64,000 nt of DNA, taken from contig NZ_VMNK01000015.1 of NCBI RefSeq assembly GCF_007625155.1, positions 62,001 through 126,000 of the forward strand. The letters run 5' to 3'. This document shows positions 52,111-56,446 of the stretch, one piece after another. The notes under the pieces were generated by a model. That model did not search any database. It worked only from the letters and a program-made list of their open reading frames with translations, and had not been told where the DNA came from. How positions within the stretch are numbered: position 1 is the first letter of the stretch; each line of letters opens with the position of its first letter. The stretch is from Denitromonas halophila (GTDB taxonomy: Bacteria; Pseudomonadota; Gammaproteobacteria; Burkholderiales; Rhodocyclaceae). The position numbers and the translations under genes were made by a program.

Positions 52111-52923
52111 TCAGGCGGTGGCGATCCAGCCTTCGAGCGGGTCGGCGTGTGCTGGCATGCCAAATTGGGGGGCGCCATGGCGGGCGCAACGGGCGGCTTG
52201 CGCCAGTGCGAGTACGGCATCGAGCCAGTCGCCGCGGGCATCGGCGATCAAGGACGTGCGTTGTTCAGGCGTCAGCGTCAGGCGCAGTCCCGCCAGTGCG
52301 GTGCCGGCGATCAGTTCGGCGACGATGTGTTGCCGTGCTGCGAGCCGCTCGGGGCTTTGCTTGCGGCGGGTGTCACTCTTGTAGGAAGCCCGTGTGATGC
52401 GCCGGGCAAGCAGACCGGGGTAGGCCTCGACCGCGATGCGCATCGGGTCGCCGTCGTGCAGGCCCGGCAAGCGACAGCCTGCGGCAAGCAGGCGTGGCGC
52501 GCCTTCAAAAAACATCAGCCCGACCGGTGGGTTGACCAGCTTCATCGGGCTGTGCGAGTGGGCGGTGGCGTCGGTGGCGCGGTGCGGGTAGCGGGCGCCC
52601 ATGGGCCGGCGCAGGCGGTCGGCGTCGAGTGCGGCGCGAAAGTCGGTTTTGCTGAGCGTGGCGACATGACGCACCAGCGTCGCCCAGTCGGGGTGCGGCC
52701 AGCCCAGCGCGGTGAGGCCTTCGCGCGGCAGGCCAAAGGGGAAGTCGAAGGCGCCCAGCCAGGGGCCGGGCGTGTTAAGCAGGGCGTCGAAGGACGGCCA
52801 GTCGGGCAGGGCGGCGAGGCGGTCGAGGTGAATCTCCTCACCCGCGAGTCGGCCGTGTGCCACCGTAATCGGTTTGGCCGCGCGCGGCGCCGAGGTGAAG
52901 TCGACGCCGATCAGCACGCTCAC
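52111..52923 (-). CDS. DUF429 family protein
   Basis: The protein is 270 residues. It has the DUF429 opening LIGVDFTSAPRAAKPITVA, whose early Asp resembles an RNase H-like active-site strand, then FDFPFGLPR and a C-terminal IADARGDWLDAVLALAQAA with a conserved DAxxCA-like acidic region. DUF429 proteins are predicted RNase H-fold enzymes without a defined substrate. It overlaps the end of the NYN gene by 4 bp, so it is translationally coupled to a predicted RNase. Confidence 0.85.
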   Translation of the reverse strand: MSVLIGVDFTSAPRAAKPITVAHGRLAGEEIHLDRLAALPDWPSFDALLNTPGPWLGAFDFPFGLPREGLTALGWPHPDWATLVRHVATLSKTDFRAALDADRLRRPMGARYPHRATDATAHSHSPMKLVNPPVGLMFFEGAPRLLAAGCRLPGLHDGDPMRIAVEAYPGLLARRITRASYKSDTRRKQSPERLAARQHIVAELIAGTALAGLRLTLTPEQRTSLIADARGDWLDAVLALAQAARCARHGAPQFGMPAHADPLEGWIATA

Positions 52924-53672
52924 GTGCCGGCGCTGCCTTTGCTCTTGTTGCGCTTGTCGCGCAGGTAGAGGTGGCTGCCGCGACGCTCGGATTCAAACAG
53001 GCCGGTGGCTTCGATCAGGTCGCCGAGTTTTTTGTAGCCATAGTTGCGCGGATCAAACGGTGTCTGGTTGCTGATGTGCGAGCCGATAGAGGACAGGCTG
53101 GCCCAGTTGTCTTCCTCGTCGGCGCAGGCTTCGACCGCGTTGCGCAGCAAACTGGTGATGCGCGAATCGCCACGCAGCGCCTTGCTGCTCACCCGCTCCG
53201 GTTTGGCCGCGGCGGGGGCGGTGTCATCGGCGGATTCGACGATCAGGTTTTCAAGGTAGAGAAAGCGCGAGCAGGCATTGACGAAGGGCATCGGCGTTTT
53301 CTTCTCGCCAAAGCCATACACCTTGAGCCCGTTGGCGCGGATGCGCATGACCAGCGGGGTGAAGTCGGAATCGGACGAGGCGAGGCAGAAGCCGTCGAGT
53401 TGTTGGGTGTAGAGCAGGTCCATGGCGTCGATGATCATCGCCGAGTCGGTGGCGTTCTTGCCCTTGGTGTAGGCGAATTGCTGCACGGGCTGGATGGCGA
53501 ACTCGTGCACTTTGTCGGCCCAGCCGTTGAGGCTGCTGCTTTTCCAGTTGCCATAGGCGCGGCGGATGTTGGTGACGCCGTATTTGGCCAGCTCGTCGAG
53601 CATCAGGTCGATCTTGCTGGCGGGGCAGTTGTCGGCGTCGATGAGTAGGGCGATTCGGGATTCTTCTTGCAT
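52920..53672 (-). CDS. NYN-domain RNase with LOTUS/OST-HTH domain
   Basis: The protein is 250 residues. The N-terminal NYN (PIN-like) domain at about 5-150 has RIALLIDADNCP, GKNATDSAMIIDAMDLL and ASSDSDFTPLVMRIR, giving the Asp residues that bind metal. The C-terminal OST-HTH/LOTUS domain at about 170-245 has ITSLLRNAVEACADEEDNWASLSSIGS and PFDPRNYGYKKLGDLIEAT, which bind RNA. It probably cuts or binds structured RNA in the cytoplasm. It sits between the HDAC-like and DUF429 genes in an overlapping run. Confidence 0.9.
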   Translation of the reverse strand: MQEESRIALLIDADNCPASKIDLMLDELAKYGVTNIRRAYGNWKSSSLNGWADKVHEFAIQPVQQFAYTKGKNATDSAMIIDAMDLLYTQQLDGFCLASSDSDFTPLVMRIRANGLKVYGFGEKKTPMPFVNACSRFLYLENLIVESADDTAPAAAKPERVSSKALRGDSRITSLLRNAVEACADEEDNWASLSSIGSHISNQTPFDPRNYGYKKLGDLIEATGLFESERRGSHLYLRDKRNKSKGSAGT

Positions 53673-54577
53673 CAGGTGCTCCGGAACAGCCGGGCGGCTG
53701 TGAGTAATGTGGTGGCGTGAATGGCGACGGTGTCGTTGATGTCATGACCATAGCCGCCGGCCATGGCGATGGCAACGGGAATGCGCAGGCTGTGGCACAT
53801 GCTGAGTATCAGGGCGTCGCGTTGGGCGAGGCCGTCGAAGCTGAGGGACAGGCGGCCGAGGCGGTCGCCTTCGTGCGGGTCGGCGCCGGCGAGGTAAATC
53901 ACCAGCTCGGGCCGGAAGTGGGTGACGATGTCGTCGAGCGCGGGGCCGAGGGCGGCCAGGTAGTCGGCGTCGCCGGTGCCGTCGGGCAGGGCGATGTCGC
54001 GGTCGGACACCGTTTTGCGGAAGGGGAAGTTCTTGTCGCCATGCAGGCTGAGCGTGAACACCTCGGGCGTGTTGGCGAGGATGGCGGCGGTGCCGTCGCC
54101 CTGATGCACATCGCAGTCGATGATGGCGACGCGCTCGATGCGGCCTTCGGCGCGCATCGCCAGCGCGGCCACGGCGGCATCGTTGAACACGCAGAAGCCG
54201 GAGCCGAAGTCGCGGTGCGCGTGGTGGGTGCCGCCGGCCATGTTGGCTGCGCAACCGTGTTCAAGCGCGCTGCGGCAGGCGGCCAGCGTCGCGCCGGCGG
54301 AGCGGCGTGAGCGCTCGACCATCTCGGGCGTCCAGGGGAAGCCGATGCGGCGCTGCTCGGCCTCGGTGAGCTGGCCGGCGACCACGCGCTCGAGATAATC
54401 GGCGCTGTGGGCGCGCAGCAAGGCGGTGTCGTCGGCACCGTCGGGTACGCAGAAATCGGTGGCCTCGAACTGCCCGCTGGCCATCAGCTGCTCGCGCAGT
54501 CGGCTGTACTTGGCCATCGGGAAGCGATGGCCCGGCGGCAGTGGCAAAACGAAGTGGTCGGCGTAGAAAAGTTGCAT
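53672..54577 (-). CDS. Histone-deacetylase-like amidohydrolase
   Basis: The protein is 301 residues. The HDAC fold residues are present: GGTHHAHRDFGSGFCVFND with the paired His, IIDCDVHQGDGTA with the zinc-binding Asp and His, YLAGADPHEGDRLGRL with the third Asp, and GGYGHD with the Tyr. It would remove acyl groups from small molecules or lysines. The start at 54577 has TGGAG upstream; an ATG 12 bp earlier overlaps the preceding stop codon and is an alternative. In bacteria the substrate is normally unknown (polyamines, acetoin or proteins). It is within a tight minus-strand operon. Confidence 0.92.
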   Translation of the reverse strand: MQLFYADHFVLPLPPGHRFPMAKYSRLREQLMASGQFEATDFCVPDGADDTALLRAHSADYLERVVAGQLTEAEQRRIGFPWTPEMVERSRRSAGATLAACRSALEHGCAANMAGGTHHAHRDFGSGFCVFNDAAVAALAMRAEGRIERVAIIDCDVHQGDGTAAILANTPEVFTLSLHGDKNFPFRKTVSDRDIALPDGTGDADYLAALGPALDDIVTHFRPELVIYLAGADPHEGDRLGRLSLSFDGLAQRDALILSMCHSLRIPVAIAMAGGYGHDINDTVAIHATTLLTAARLFRST

Positions 54578-54588
54578 CCGCGGCTCCA

Positions 54589-55809
54589 TCAGCGCTCGCG
54601 CGCCAGGCAGCGGTCGTAACGCCATTCGACCCGTTTGGCAAACCAGGCGGTGGTGAGTTTGCGCTGGATTTTCGGGCTCTTGAGCAGGATGTCCGGCATC
54701 TGCTGGCGCGGCAGCGTCCGCCCGGCCTTGCGCTCGGCCAGTTGCCAGAGGCGGTCGTAGAGTCGGGTGTGGCTGAAGTCGGCGGATTTTTCGCGCGTCA
54801 GATCGCTGCGGATCTGGCGGGCGCTGAGGTGAAGGTGGCCGGCGATCGCACGCAAGGCGGCCTCGGTGCTGCTGGCCTCGTTGCTGGGCGATTTGCCTTG
54901 GTAGCGCAGCAGGTCGCCATCCGGCGCGAGCTTGCGACCGGAGACGCGGGTGATCGCGCTCTGGAAGGCGGCGTTGCGGCTGCTGTATTGCCCAGCGTTG
55001 AAATCGGCGAAGCGGTAGCGCGGGTGCGGGTAGTCGGCGGGGTAGTCGAGCAGGTTGGCGATACCAAAGTAGAGCCCGCCACGGCGGGTGAACACTTCGT
55101 GGCGGACGCTGCCGGTGCGCGCGTAGGGGAAGGGGCGCTGGCGCAGGTGGTCTTCGGCGAAGGCGATGCTGACCTGCATGGGTCCGCCGGTGCGGATCGG
55201 GTTGAATCCCGACAGCAGGGTCTTGCCCAGCGGCAGTTCGGAGAGCATGTCTTCGAACAGCGTGTTCATCTGCTTTTCGGTGCGCAGGGCGGCGATGCGC
55301 CTGGCGTAGCTGCGGCCGTCGGGCGAGGATTTTTCGAGCGCCGCGCTGACGACGATTTTCGGAATGCCGTAGCGCTCGGCGCGGCTGTCGATTTCATTGC
55401 GCACGATGCGCGGCAGGCCGGCCACCACCGGGTCGGCCTGCCAAGTGGACTCCTGCTCGATCACGGCCATGGCGGCGCACAGATTTTCGGCGCTGCGGGG
55501 GACCTCGAGGTGGTCGAGTGCGGCGTCGATGTCGCGTGCCCAGCCCGGGCGATCGGTGATGCCGCCGGGTAGCAGATCGGCCGCGCTCAGGCGCGGGCCT
55601 GCGGGTGGCGTGAACGGCCACGGCGTGACTGGCGCCTCCTGCACCGGCGCTGTTGGCTGTGGCGGCTGGCTGGGGGTGGGCGTGGCTTGCCCCGGCACCG
55701 TCGGTGGCAGCGAGGGCGAGGGGCGGGATTCGTAAGGCGTGGTTTGGCAGGCCGCGAGAAACATCGGGGCTGCGATGAGCGCAATGCGCCGCAACAGGAT
55801 CTCGGACAT
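54589..55809 (-). CDS. DUF1615 outer-membrane lipoprotein
   Basis: The protein is 406 residues with a lipobox (FLAAC, Cys21), so it is lipidated. After a Pro-rich linker (about 22-75) comes the DUF1615 domain with MAVIEQESTWQADPVV, which resembles the catalytic Glu region of lytic transglycosylases, and later GGPMQVSIAFAEDH and RRGGLYFGIANLLDY. A cell-wall role is plausible but unproved. It lies 5 bp upstream of the HDAC-like gene's possible start and 4 bp downstream of the folE paralogue. Confidence 0.85.
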   Translation of the reverse strand: MSEILLRRIALIAAPMFLAACQTTPYESRPSPSLPPTVPGQATPTPSQPPQPTAPVQEAPVTPWPFTPPAGPRLSAADLLPGGITDRPGWARDIDAALDHLEVPRSAENLCAAMAVIEQESTWQADPVVAGLPRIVRNEIDSRAERYGIPKIVVSAALEKSSPDGRSYARRIAALRTEKQMNTLFEDMLSELPLGKTLLSGFNPIRTGGPMQVSIAFAEDHLRQRPFPYARTGSVRHEVFTRRGGLYFGIANLLDYPADYPHPRYRFADFNAGQYSSRNAAFQSAITRVSGRKLAPDGDLLRYQGKSPSNEASSTEAALRAIAGHLHLSARQIRSDLTREKSADFSHTRLYDRLWQLAERKAGRTLPRQQMPDILLKSPKIQRKLTTAWFAKRVEWRYDRCLARER

Positions 55810-55813
55810 GGGG

Positions 55814-56446
55814 TCAGCGGGGGCCGGGTCCAATGGCGCGCATGAATTCGTTGCGCGCCTGCAGATCATTTTCGAAGCTGCCGGCAAAGGCTTGGGTGAT
55901 GACGCGCTCGTCACCACGGCGATCCTCACCCAGCAGCAGGCACAGTTGCTCGGCTTCAATCAGGCACGCGGCGCCGGCGGCCTGGCCGTGCTGGACCAGT
56001 ACGTCGGCGATGTCGCGGGTCATCCATTCCTGATAGGTGAAGCGGTGGCCGATGGCGTCGACCATGCGCGCGATGCGACCGAAGCCGTGTAGACGGCCGC
56101 CGGGAATGTAGGCCACGTGGGCCACGCCGCGAAACGGCACGAGATGGTGCGGGCAGATGCCATGCACGGCGATGCCACGCACCACCACCATGTCGCGGCG
56201 GGGGTCTTCAAAGCCATCGCCGAGGGCGTCGGCGGGGTCAAGCTCGTAACCGCCGAGCAGGCGTTTTTGCCACAGCTCGCGCACGCGCTGAACGGTGCGT
56301 CCGGTGTGCGGGCCGTCGGTCGATACGCCGCAGGCGCGCAGCATGTCACCGACGGCTTTCTCGAAGGCGATCGGGTCGAAATCGCCCTCGCGGGCGATGC
56401 CGATGCCGCGGCGCGGGGCGGGAGCGTGATGGCAATCGTCAGACAT
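55814..56446 (-). CDS. folE: GTP cyclohydrolase I-like protein with altered active site
   Basis: The protein is 210 residues. It follows GTP cyclohydrolase I: HGICPHHLVPFRGVAHVAYIPGG (Cys98 and two His) and the last Zn ligand, Cys169 in EAEQLCLLLGEDRRG. The position two before that Cys is normally a catalytic His (E. coli H179) but is Gln167 here, and the usual ARG motif after the Cys is replaced by LLGEDRRG. Folate-type GTP ring opening may be changed or lost. It is the first gene of the minus-strand run folE-DUF1615-HDAC-NYN-DUF429. Confidence 0.8.
   Translation of the reverse strand: MSDDCHHAPAPRRGIGIAREGDFDPIAFEKAVGDMLRACGVSTDGPHTGRTVQRVRELWQKRLLGGYELDPADALGDGFEDPRRDMVVVRGIAVHGICPHHLVPFRGVAHVAYIPGGRLHGFGRIARMVDAIGHRFTYQEWMTRDIADVLVQHGQAAGAACLIEAEQLCLLLGEDRRGDERVITQAFAGSFENDLQARNEFMRAIGPGPR

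Follow-up and report, generated by a model that had tools for sequence, protein, structure and literature searches.

A GTP cyclohydrolase I-like subfamily with glutamine in place of the catalytic histidine in Denitromonas halophila and its relatives

The gene and its neighbours

The window, a stretch of 64,000 nt from Denitromonas halophila, contains on its reverse strand an open reading frame (55814-56446) that starts with ATG and encodes a GTP cyclohydrolase I-like protein of 210 amino acids, now on referred to as FolE-Q. The domain PF01227 (GTP cyclohydrolase I) covers the whole protein (165.6 bits, cut-off 27) and was the only family found when FolE-Q was scanned against Pfam at E 0.001. 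The nearest named relative, from Denitromonas ohlonensis, is 99% identical. FolE-Q passes two NCBIfam subfamily models named GTP cyclohydrolase I FolE, NF006825 (199.4, cut-off 174), which is not an equivalog model, and NF006826 (185.5, cut-off 162), and fails the folE equivalog model TIGR00063 (106.8 bits, cut-off 181.6) as well as the equivalog model NF006824 (71.2, cut-off 202).

In an alignment with E. coli chain 1fbx, used as reference for residue numbering, H179 corresponds to Q167, C181 to C169 and R185 to G173, C110, H112 and H113 correspond to C98, H100 and H101, and Q151-E152 to Q139-E140. The segment E166-Q167-L168-C169-L-L-L-G173-E174 lies opposite V178-H179-Y180-C181-V-K-A-R185-G186 of E. 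coli, with no indels from C181 to T196, and by this alignment the original prediction, that Q167-L-C169 stands where GTP cyclohydrolase I has H-x-C, is exact. The codons of the invariant E166-Q-L-C-L-L-L-G-E-D-R-R-G-D-E-R-V182, which replaces the canonical H-x-C-x-x-x-R-G, are situated at 55901..55951 and those of C98-P-H-H101 at 56144..56155, both on the reverse strand; in the latter motif C98 and H101 are zinc ligands and H100 is the second catalytic-site histidine.

The AlphaFold2 model of FolE-Q (49 aligned sequences) represents a monomer, in a family where active sites sit between three subunits (PMC4005822), and has a mean pLDDT of 88.9 and a pTM of 0.84, with values below 50 for residues 1–11 and an average of 68 for the block 171–180, which includes the new loop. 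Its best solved match is M. tuberculosis FolE (9p8z; Z 22.4, rmsd 1.8, 186 residues, about 35-36% identity), and Foldseek likewise gave GTP cyclohydrolases I as the top solved matches. The FolE2 domain PF02649 (GCYH-IB) was not found in the Pfam scan, and this separate family shares the T-fold core (Z 8.9 to 3d2o); the QueF/QueF-like profile was not matched either, the likeness being one of T-fold only (Z 9.7-12.3). The N-terminal tail, encoded at 56384..56446 on the reverse strand, contains Cys and His and is predicted to be disordered.

Several genes follow on the same strand. A DUF1615 lipoprotein-like gene (54589..55809; PF07759, 475.9 bits) has its ATG at 55809, 4 bases past the FolE-Q stop, and overlaps by one base (TGATG) with an HDAC-like gene (53672..54589; PF00850, 212.4 bits), which in turn shares one base with a gene (52920..53672; PF01936 and PF12872) in which a NYN nuclease-like domain is fused to an OST-HTH/LOTUS domain. 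The NYN gene is overlapped by 4 bases by a gene with a GTG start (52111..52923) encoding 270 aa, for which no Pfam or NCBIfam match was obtained at 0.001 and none over cut-off. PADLOC had no match for five proteins and a defence gene was therefore rejected, as was a riboswitch, since no Rfam element reached gathering score anywhere in the 64,000-nt window.

The tight arrangement, with gaps and overlaps of 1–4 bases, is that of the operon with HDAC-like and RNase-like genes proposed from the window, but it is conserved only in close relatives. Among 80 named loci, homologues of the DUF1615, HDAC and NYN genes lie near FolE-Q in just 9, 6 and 5, respectively, which leaves a functional link to the HDAC-like and RNase-like genes unsupported, and a functional operon was rejected on the same counts. 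Clustering of the neighbours, in which the subfamily gene was called in 55 of the 80 loci, gave DUF3301 (14), a gene of 198 aa that matches no Pfam family (13) and a FabI-type reductase (11) as the commonest genes within 1500 bases in these 55 loci; they point to no pathway, the neighbours in other lineages are unrelated, and no conserved gene partner able to use a formylaminopyrimidine product appeared in the clustering.

Conservation and phylogeny of the Gln subfamily

In total 248 FolE-like loci were read and 247 aligned, a truncated gene (L009) being left out. At position 179 (E. coli numbering, used from here on) the aligned rows have Gln in 147 cases, His in 99 and a gap in one (L082), and since the latter when read directly shows Gln and the same motif, 148 sequences are of the Gln type. 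The 147 aligned Gln rows represent 126 distinct rows, many of them from close relatives and some from genomes present twice in the set, so all counts given here are of sequences and not of independent events. All 148 have the same Gln and the identical LCLLLGEDRRGDERV string, the segment Q167 to V182 of FolE-Q being found in 148/148 and E166 in 147/148, with synonymous variation at each position of the motif codons.

The zinc ligands C110, H113 and C181, the catalytic-site residue H112, the guanine-binding Q151 and E152, and also R65 and R139 are kept in 147/147 Gln rows. The CPHH site is likewise intact in all 147, and the ARG motif is gone from them, R185 being replaced by Gly in every row, both as the original prediction stated for the protein of the window. 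K136 is Arg in 147/147 and the ribose-binding S135 is Gly in 146/147, and together with RRGDER, Y150 and W153 the residues G135, R136 and G185 form a new near-invariant set. Among the His-type rows H179 is present in 99/99 and R185 in 98/99. One His-type FolE-like sequence (L248, G465:C6:64400-64933) was observed to have Ser at the R185 position (HDCVNRSG); another FolE is present in its genome, and FolE2 is not matched there.

Comparison of FolE-Q with ten relatives gave dN/dS values of 0.017 to 0.207 at dS of 0.25 to 1.16, the larger dS values being near saturation, and indicates that the subfamily is under strong purifying selection. The best 80 of 344 matching stretches were read, and all 80 are of the Gln type. 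A pseudogene, a sequencing error or chance is ruled out by the 148/148 conservation, the free synonymous change and the dN/dS values.

A first tree was built without the motif columns and comprised E. coli, 52 of 97 distinct His rows and 28 of 126 distinct Gln rows; in it the Gln rows were set apart by a branch with 4.48 changes per column, at support 100, and were joined to each other by short branches. The Gln clade was found again (100/100), on a branch of 2.43 changes per column, in a second tree of 42 rows including four viral sequences, where the support for its sister group was 40/79 only. Judging from both trees, FolE-Q is one discrete clade on a very long branch. When 398 genomes across the phylum were searched with the subfamily profile, the window's own genome and another of its order stood out with 376 and 366 bits, and no score elsewhere exceeded 136 bits. 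FolE-Q was present in all 10 genomes drawn from the window's genus. Spread by phage or plasmid was rejected because no match of at least 60% identity was found in 347 phage records or in 236 plasmid records.

The N-terminal tails also set the subfamily apart. Among distinct N-termini of the Gln clade Cys and His make up on average 14% of residues 2–22, compared with 1.4% for His-type FolE and 5.3% for background ORFs, and at least three Cys/His occur in this region in 52 of 87 distinct Gln N-termini, 0 of 53 His-type and 134 of 966 background ORFs. In these counts start sites followed a fixed rule, background ORFs came from the same loci and began at their first ATG or GTG, and there was no correction for kinship. 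Some Gln members, for example L080, have few or zero Cys/His in the tail. His/Asp repeats (HDHDHDH and HDHP runs) were noted at the N-termini of L066, L075, L084, L111 and L113, the run in L066 (near 5731) consisting of HDHP repeats.

Other GTP cyclohydrolases and folate supply

FolE-Q had been described as a FolE paralogue, with the suggestion to look for a second, canonical folE in the genome. No second PF01227 match was found when the window's genome was searched; instead it contains one full FolE2 gene (PF02649, 333.5 bits, no stops). The description thus holds in that another GTP cyclohydrolase I is present, but this belongs to the FolE2 family and FolE-Q is the sole PF01227 match. FolE2 is likely the folate enzyme of this genome, which also has HPPK and PTPS/QueD-family genes, whose pathways draw on dihydroneopterin triphosphate, and because FolE2 is present FolE-Q is not the only possible source of this compound. 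Two GTP cyclohydrolase II-type matches were also observed in the genome (L280/L281, G000:C11:53112-53600 with 231.7 bits and G000:C10:43700-44167 with 127.3 bits). As two RibA-type genes already serve riboflavin and the genome has no creatininase-family match, a riboflavin route via a BrbF-like formamidase was rejected.

Among 399 genomes of the order, a FolE-like match was found in 196 and FolE2 in 318. The Gln form occurs in 48, of which 46 have FolE2; of the other two, G677 has an ordinary His-type FolE, and G575, a MAG that is 67% complete, has neither FolE2 nor a His-type FolE. In genomes more than 67% complete FolE-Q is therefore never the sole such gene among the 48, and at least six of them (G550, G552, G581, G677, G748 and G774) also have a His-type FolE. 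In comparison, FolE2 is missing from 72 of the 148 genomes with His-type FolE only (Fisher p 3e-9 for FolE2 presence, uncorrected for kinship), a difference to be read with the relatedness of the genomes in mind, since it makes Fisher and rank tests exaggerate independence. FolE2 without any FolE-like match was found in 196 of the 399 genomes, so FolE2 alone is common.

Since the Gln form has lost catalytic residues and its carriers normally have an ordinary enzyme, it very probably has another role, and we consider it highly likely that FolE-Q is a functional, zinc-site-bearing protein that is not the folate enzyme. The altered chemistry proposed from the window is well, though indirectly, supported: H179, R185 and S135 are missing from all members or nearly so, and this is joined by strong purifying selection, by the separate clade and by the near-constant presence of another source of dihydroneopterin triphosphate.

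Possible functions of FolE-Q

For the Thermus enzyme, cleavage of N7-C8 is described as promoted by His177 (E. coli H179), which protonates N7; His110 (H112) works at the ribose oxygen, the 2' and 3' hydroxyls are held by Ser133 (S135), and guanine is recognised by Glu150 (E152) (PMC4005822). That H179 is required for catalysis in E. coli, as stated in the original prediction, agrees with the same source, according to which its replacement abolishes activity (PMC4005822), and H179 mutants were described to form 2-amino-5-formylamino-6-ribofuranosylamino-4(3H)-pyrimidinone triphosphate (Bracher 1999, cited in PMC7750480).

That the residues for ring opening are kept and those for formate loss are gone argues for a hydrolase which would stop at formylaminopyrimidine or have a changed substrate. 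We tentatively favour, in full awareness that it may well be wrong, the reading of FolE-Q as a neofunctionalised GTP cyclohydrolase I subfamily, a zinc hydrolase halting at formylaminopyrimidine. The retained fold, zinc ligands, H112 and guanine-reading Gln-Glu would permit zinc-assisted opening of the guanine ring, and the reaction would halt after the first cleavage (C8-N9), giving a 5-formylaminopyrimidine as in the E. coli FolE H179 mutants. Loss of H179 would preclude formate release, and without S135 and R185 ribose and phosphate would not be held in the usual way. In E. coli FolE the triphosphate is gripped by K136, R139 and R185. The rebuilt ribose/phosphate site (S135G, K136R, R185G, RRGDER) may thus take a substrate that is not plain GTP, or provide a different phosphate grip, and because these residues are lost plain GTP is a doubtful substrate; a different GTP-derived product, as first suggested, is possible. 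By analogy with metallochaperones, the Cys/His-rich N-terminal tail probably aids FolE-Q in zinc capture.

Several observations speak against this reading. It finds no conserved partner gene for the product and no creatininase-family formamidase in the genome, and riboflavin is already served by the two RibA-type genes. The ring opening of GTP is reversible with an equilibrium that favours GTP, so that an enzyme arrested at this stage would require a sink. With S135 and R185 lost, FolE-Q could also have given up nucleotide binding altogether, and the many genomes with FolE2 and no FolE-like match manage without FolE-Q.

Two other explanations appear unlikely, one no less so than the other. In the first, FolE-Q would have lost catalysis and become a pseudoenzyme that binds zinc through its former active site and its tail and serves to store or sense the metal or to regulate, for instance, FolE2. 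All zinc ligands are kept where H179, S135 and R185 are lost, the tail is enriched in Cys and His over both His-type FolE and background ORFs, and the protein co-occurs with FolE2, an enzyme type that is metal-promiscuous in C. metallidurans (PMC10882993), but H112 and the guanine-reading Gln151-Glu152, needless for a pure metal store, are also invariant, and a zinc theme was not found among the conserved neighbours.

In the second, FolE-Q would be a zinc hydrolase with full turnover on a clearly different small molecule that carries no triphosphate, be it a purine, a pterin or another heterocycle. The replacement of ribose- and phosphate-site residues by the near-invariant G135, R136, G185, RRGDER, Y150 and W153, and the single long branch followed by little change, would suit such a shift, although the guanine-reading Gln-Glu is retained and genome context indicates no other pathway.

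Rather more doubtful is a wider version of the favoured reading, in which FolE-Q, with its zinc-gathering tail, would either open a guanine nucleotide at its imidazole ring, halting at formylaminopyrimidine, or re-close ring-opened damaged guanine nucleotides; that it would then be a bacterial, FolE-derived counterpart of archaeal GTP cyclohydrolase III is equally doubtful. Quite improbable is an ordinary GTP cyclohydrolase I serving as zinc-dependent backup for FolE2, with Gln167 and the new loop compensating, for which the passed NF006825 and NF006826 cut-offs and the use of both IA and IB enzymes by C. metallidurans (PMC10882993) can be cited, against the failed equivalog models TIGR00063 and NF006824, the loss of activity when E. 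coli H179 is replaced (PMC4005822) and the fact that FolE-Q, unlike His-type FolE (72/148 without FolE2), is never the sole such gene in genomes more than 67% complete.

When compared to known systems, FolE-Q shares with GCYH-IA (FolE, PF01227) the fold, the zinc ligands, H112, Gln151-Glu152, Arg65 and Arg139, and differs from it in H179Q, R185G, S135G, K136R, the GEDRRGDER loop and the Cys/His-rich N-terminal tail. The E. coli H179 laboratory mutants lack the same histidine, with the other residues reportedly intact, whereas in FolE-Q the ribose and phosphate site is rebuilt too. Archaeal GTP cyclohydrolase III (ArfA) has as end product a formylaminopyrimidine nucleotide, the type proposed for FolE-Q (PMC9478397), but its product is a monophosphate and by Pfam profile it belongs to an unrelated family, its profile not being matched by FolE-Q, which has PF01227 alone. 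If the ring-opening reading is true, evolution has established in FolE-Q the block that mutation of E. coli H179 produced in the laboratory, and bacteria would have a way to make a formylaminopyrimidine nucleotide; the bacterial enzyme supplying this nucleotide to the formamidase of another bacterial class is described by the authors who studied it as still undiscovered (PMC9478397). No description of the FolE-Q subfamily was found in the literature covered, which mostly excludes subscription journals. FolE-Q is a real and conserved zinc-site protein, probably neofunctionalised and mislabelled by current models, and as profile models label these proteins GTP cyclohydrolase I FolE, it is probably included, as an enzyme of a step that it does not perform, when the folate pathway is reconstructed for Thauera, Azoarcus, Accumulibacter, Thiobacillus and their relatives.

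The CPHH motif, in place of CEHH, is common to FolE-Q and viral or phage FolE (HGVCPHH) and is not special, being found in 14 out of 14 FolE-like relatives from viral contigs. These are 26–34% identical and all retain His and R-G, both of which FolE-Q lacks. The best phage match has 35% identity and adjoins a 7-cyano-7-deazaguanine synthase gene.
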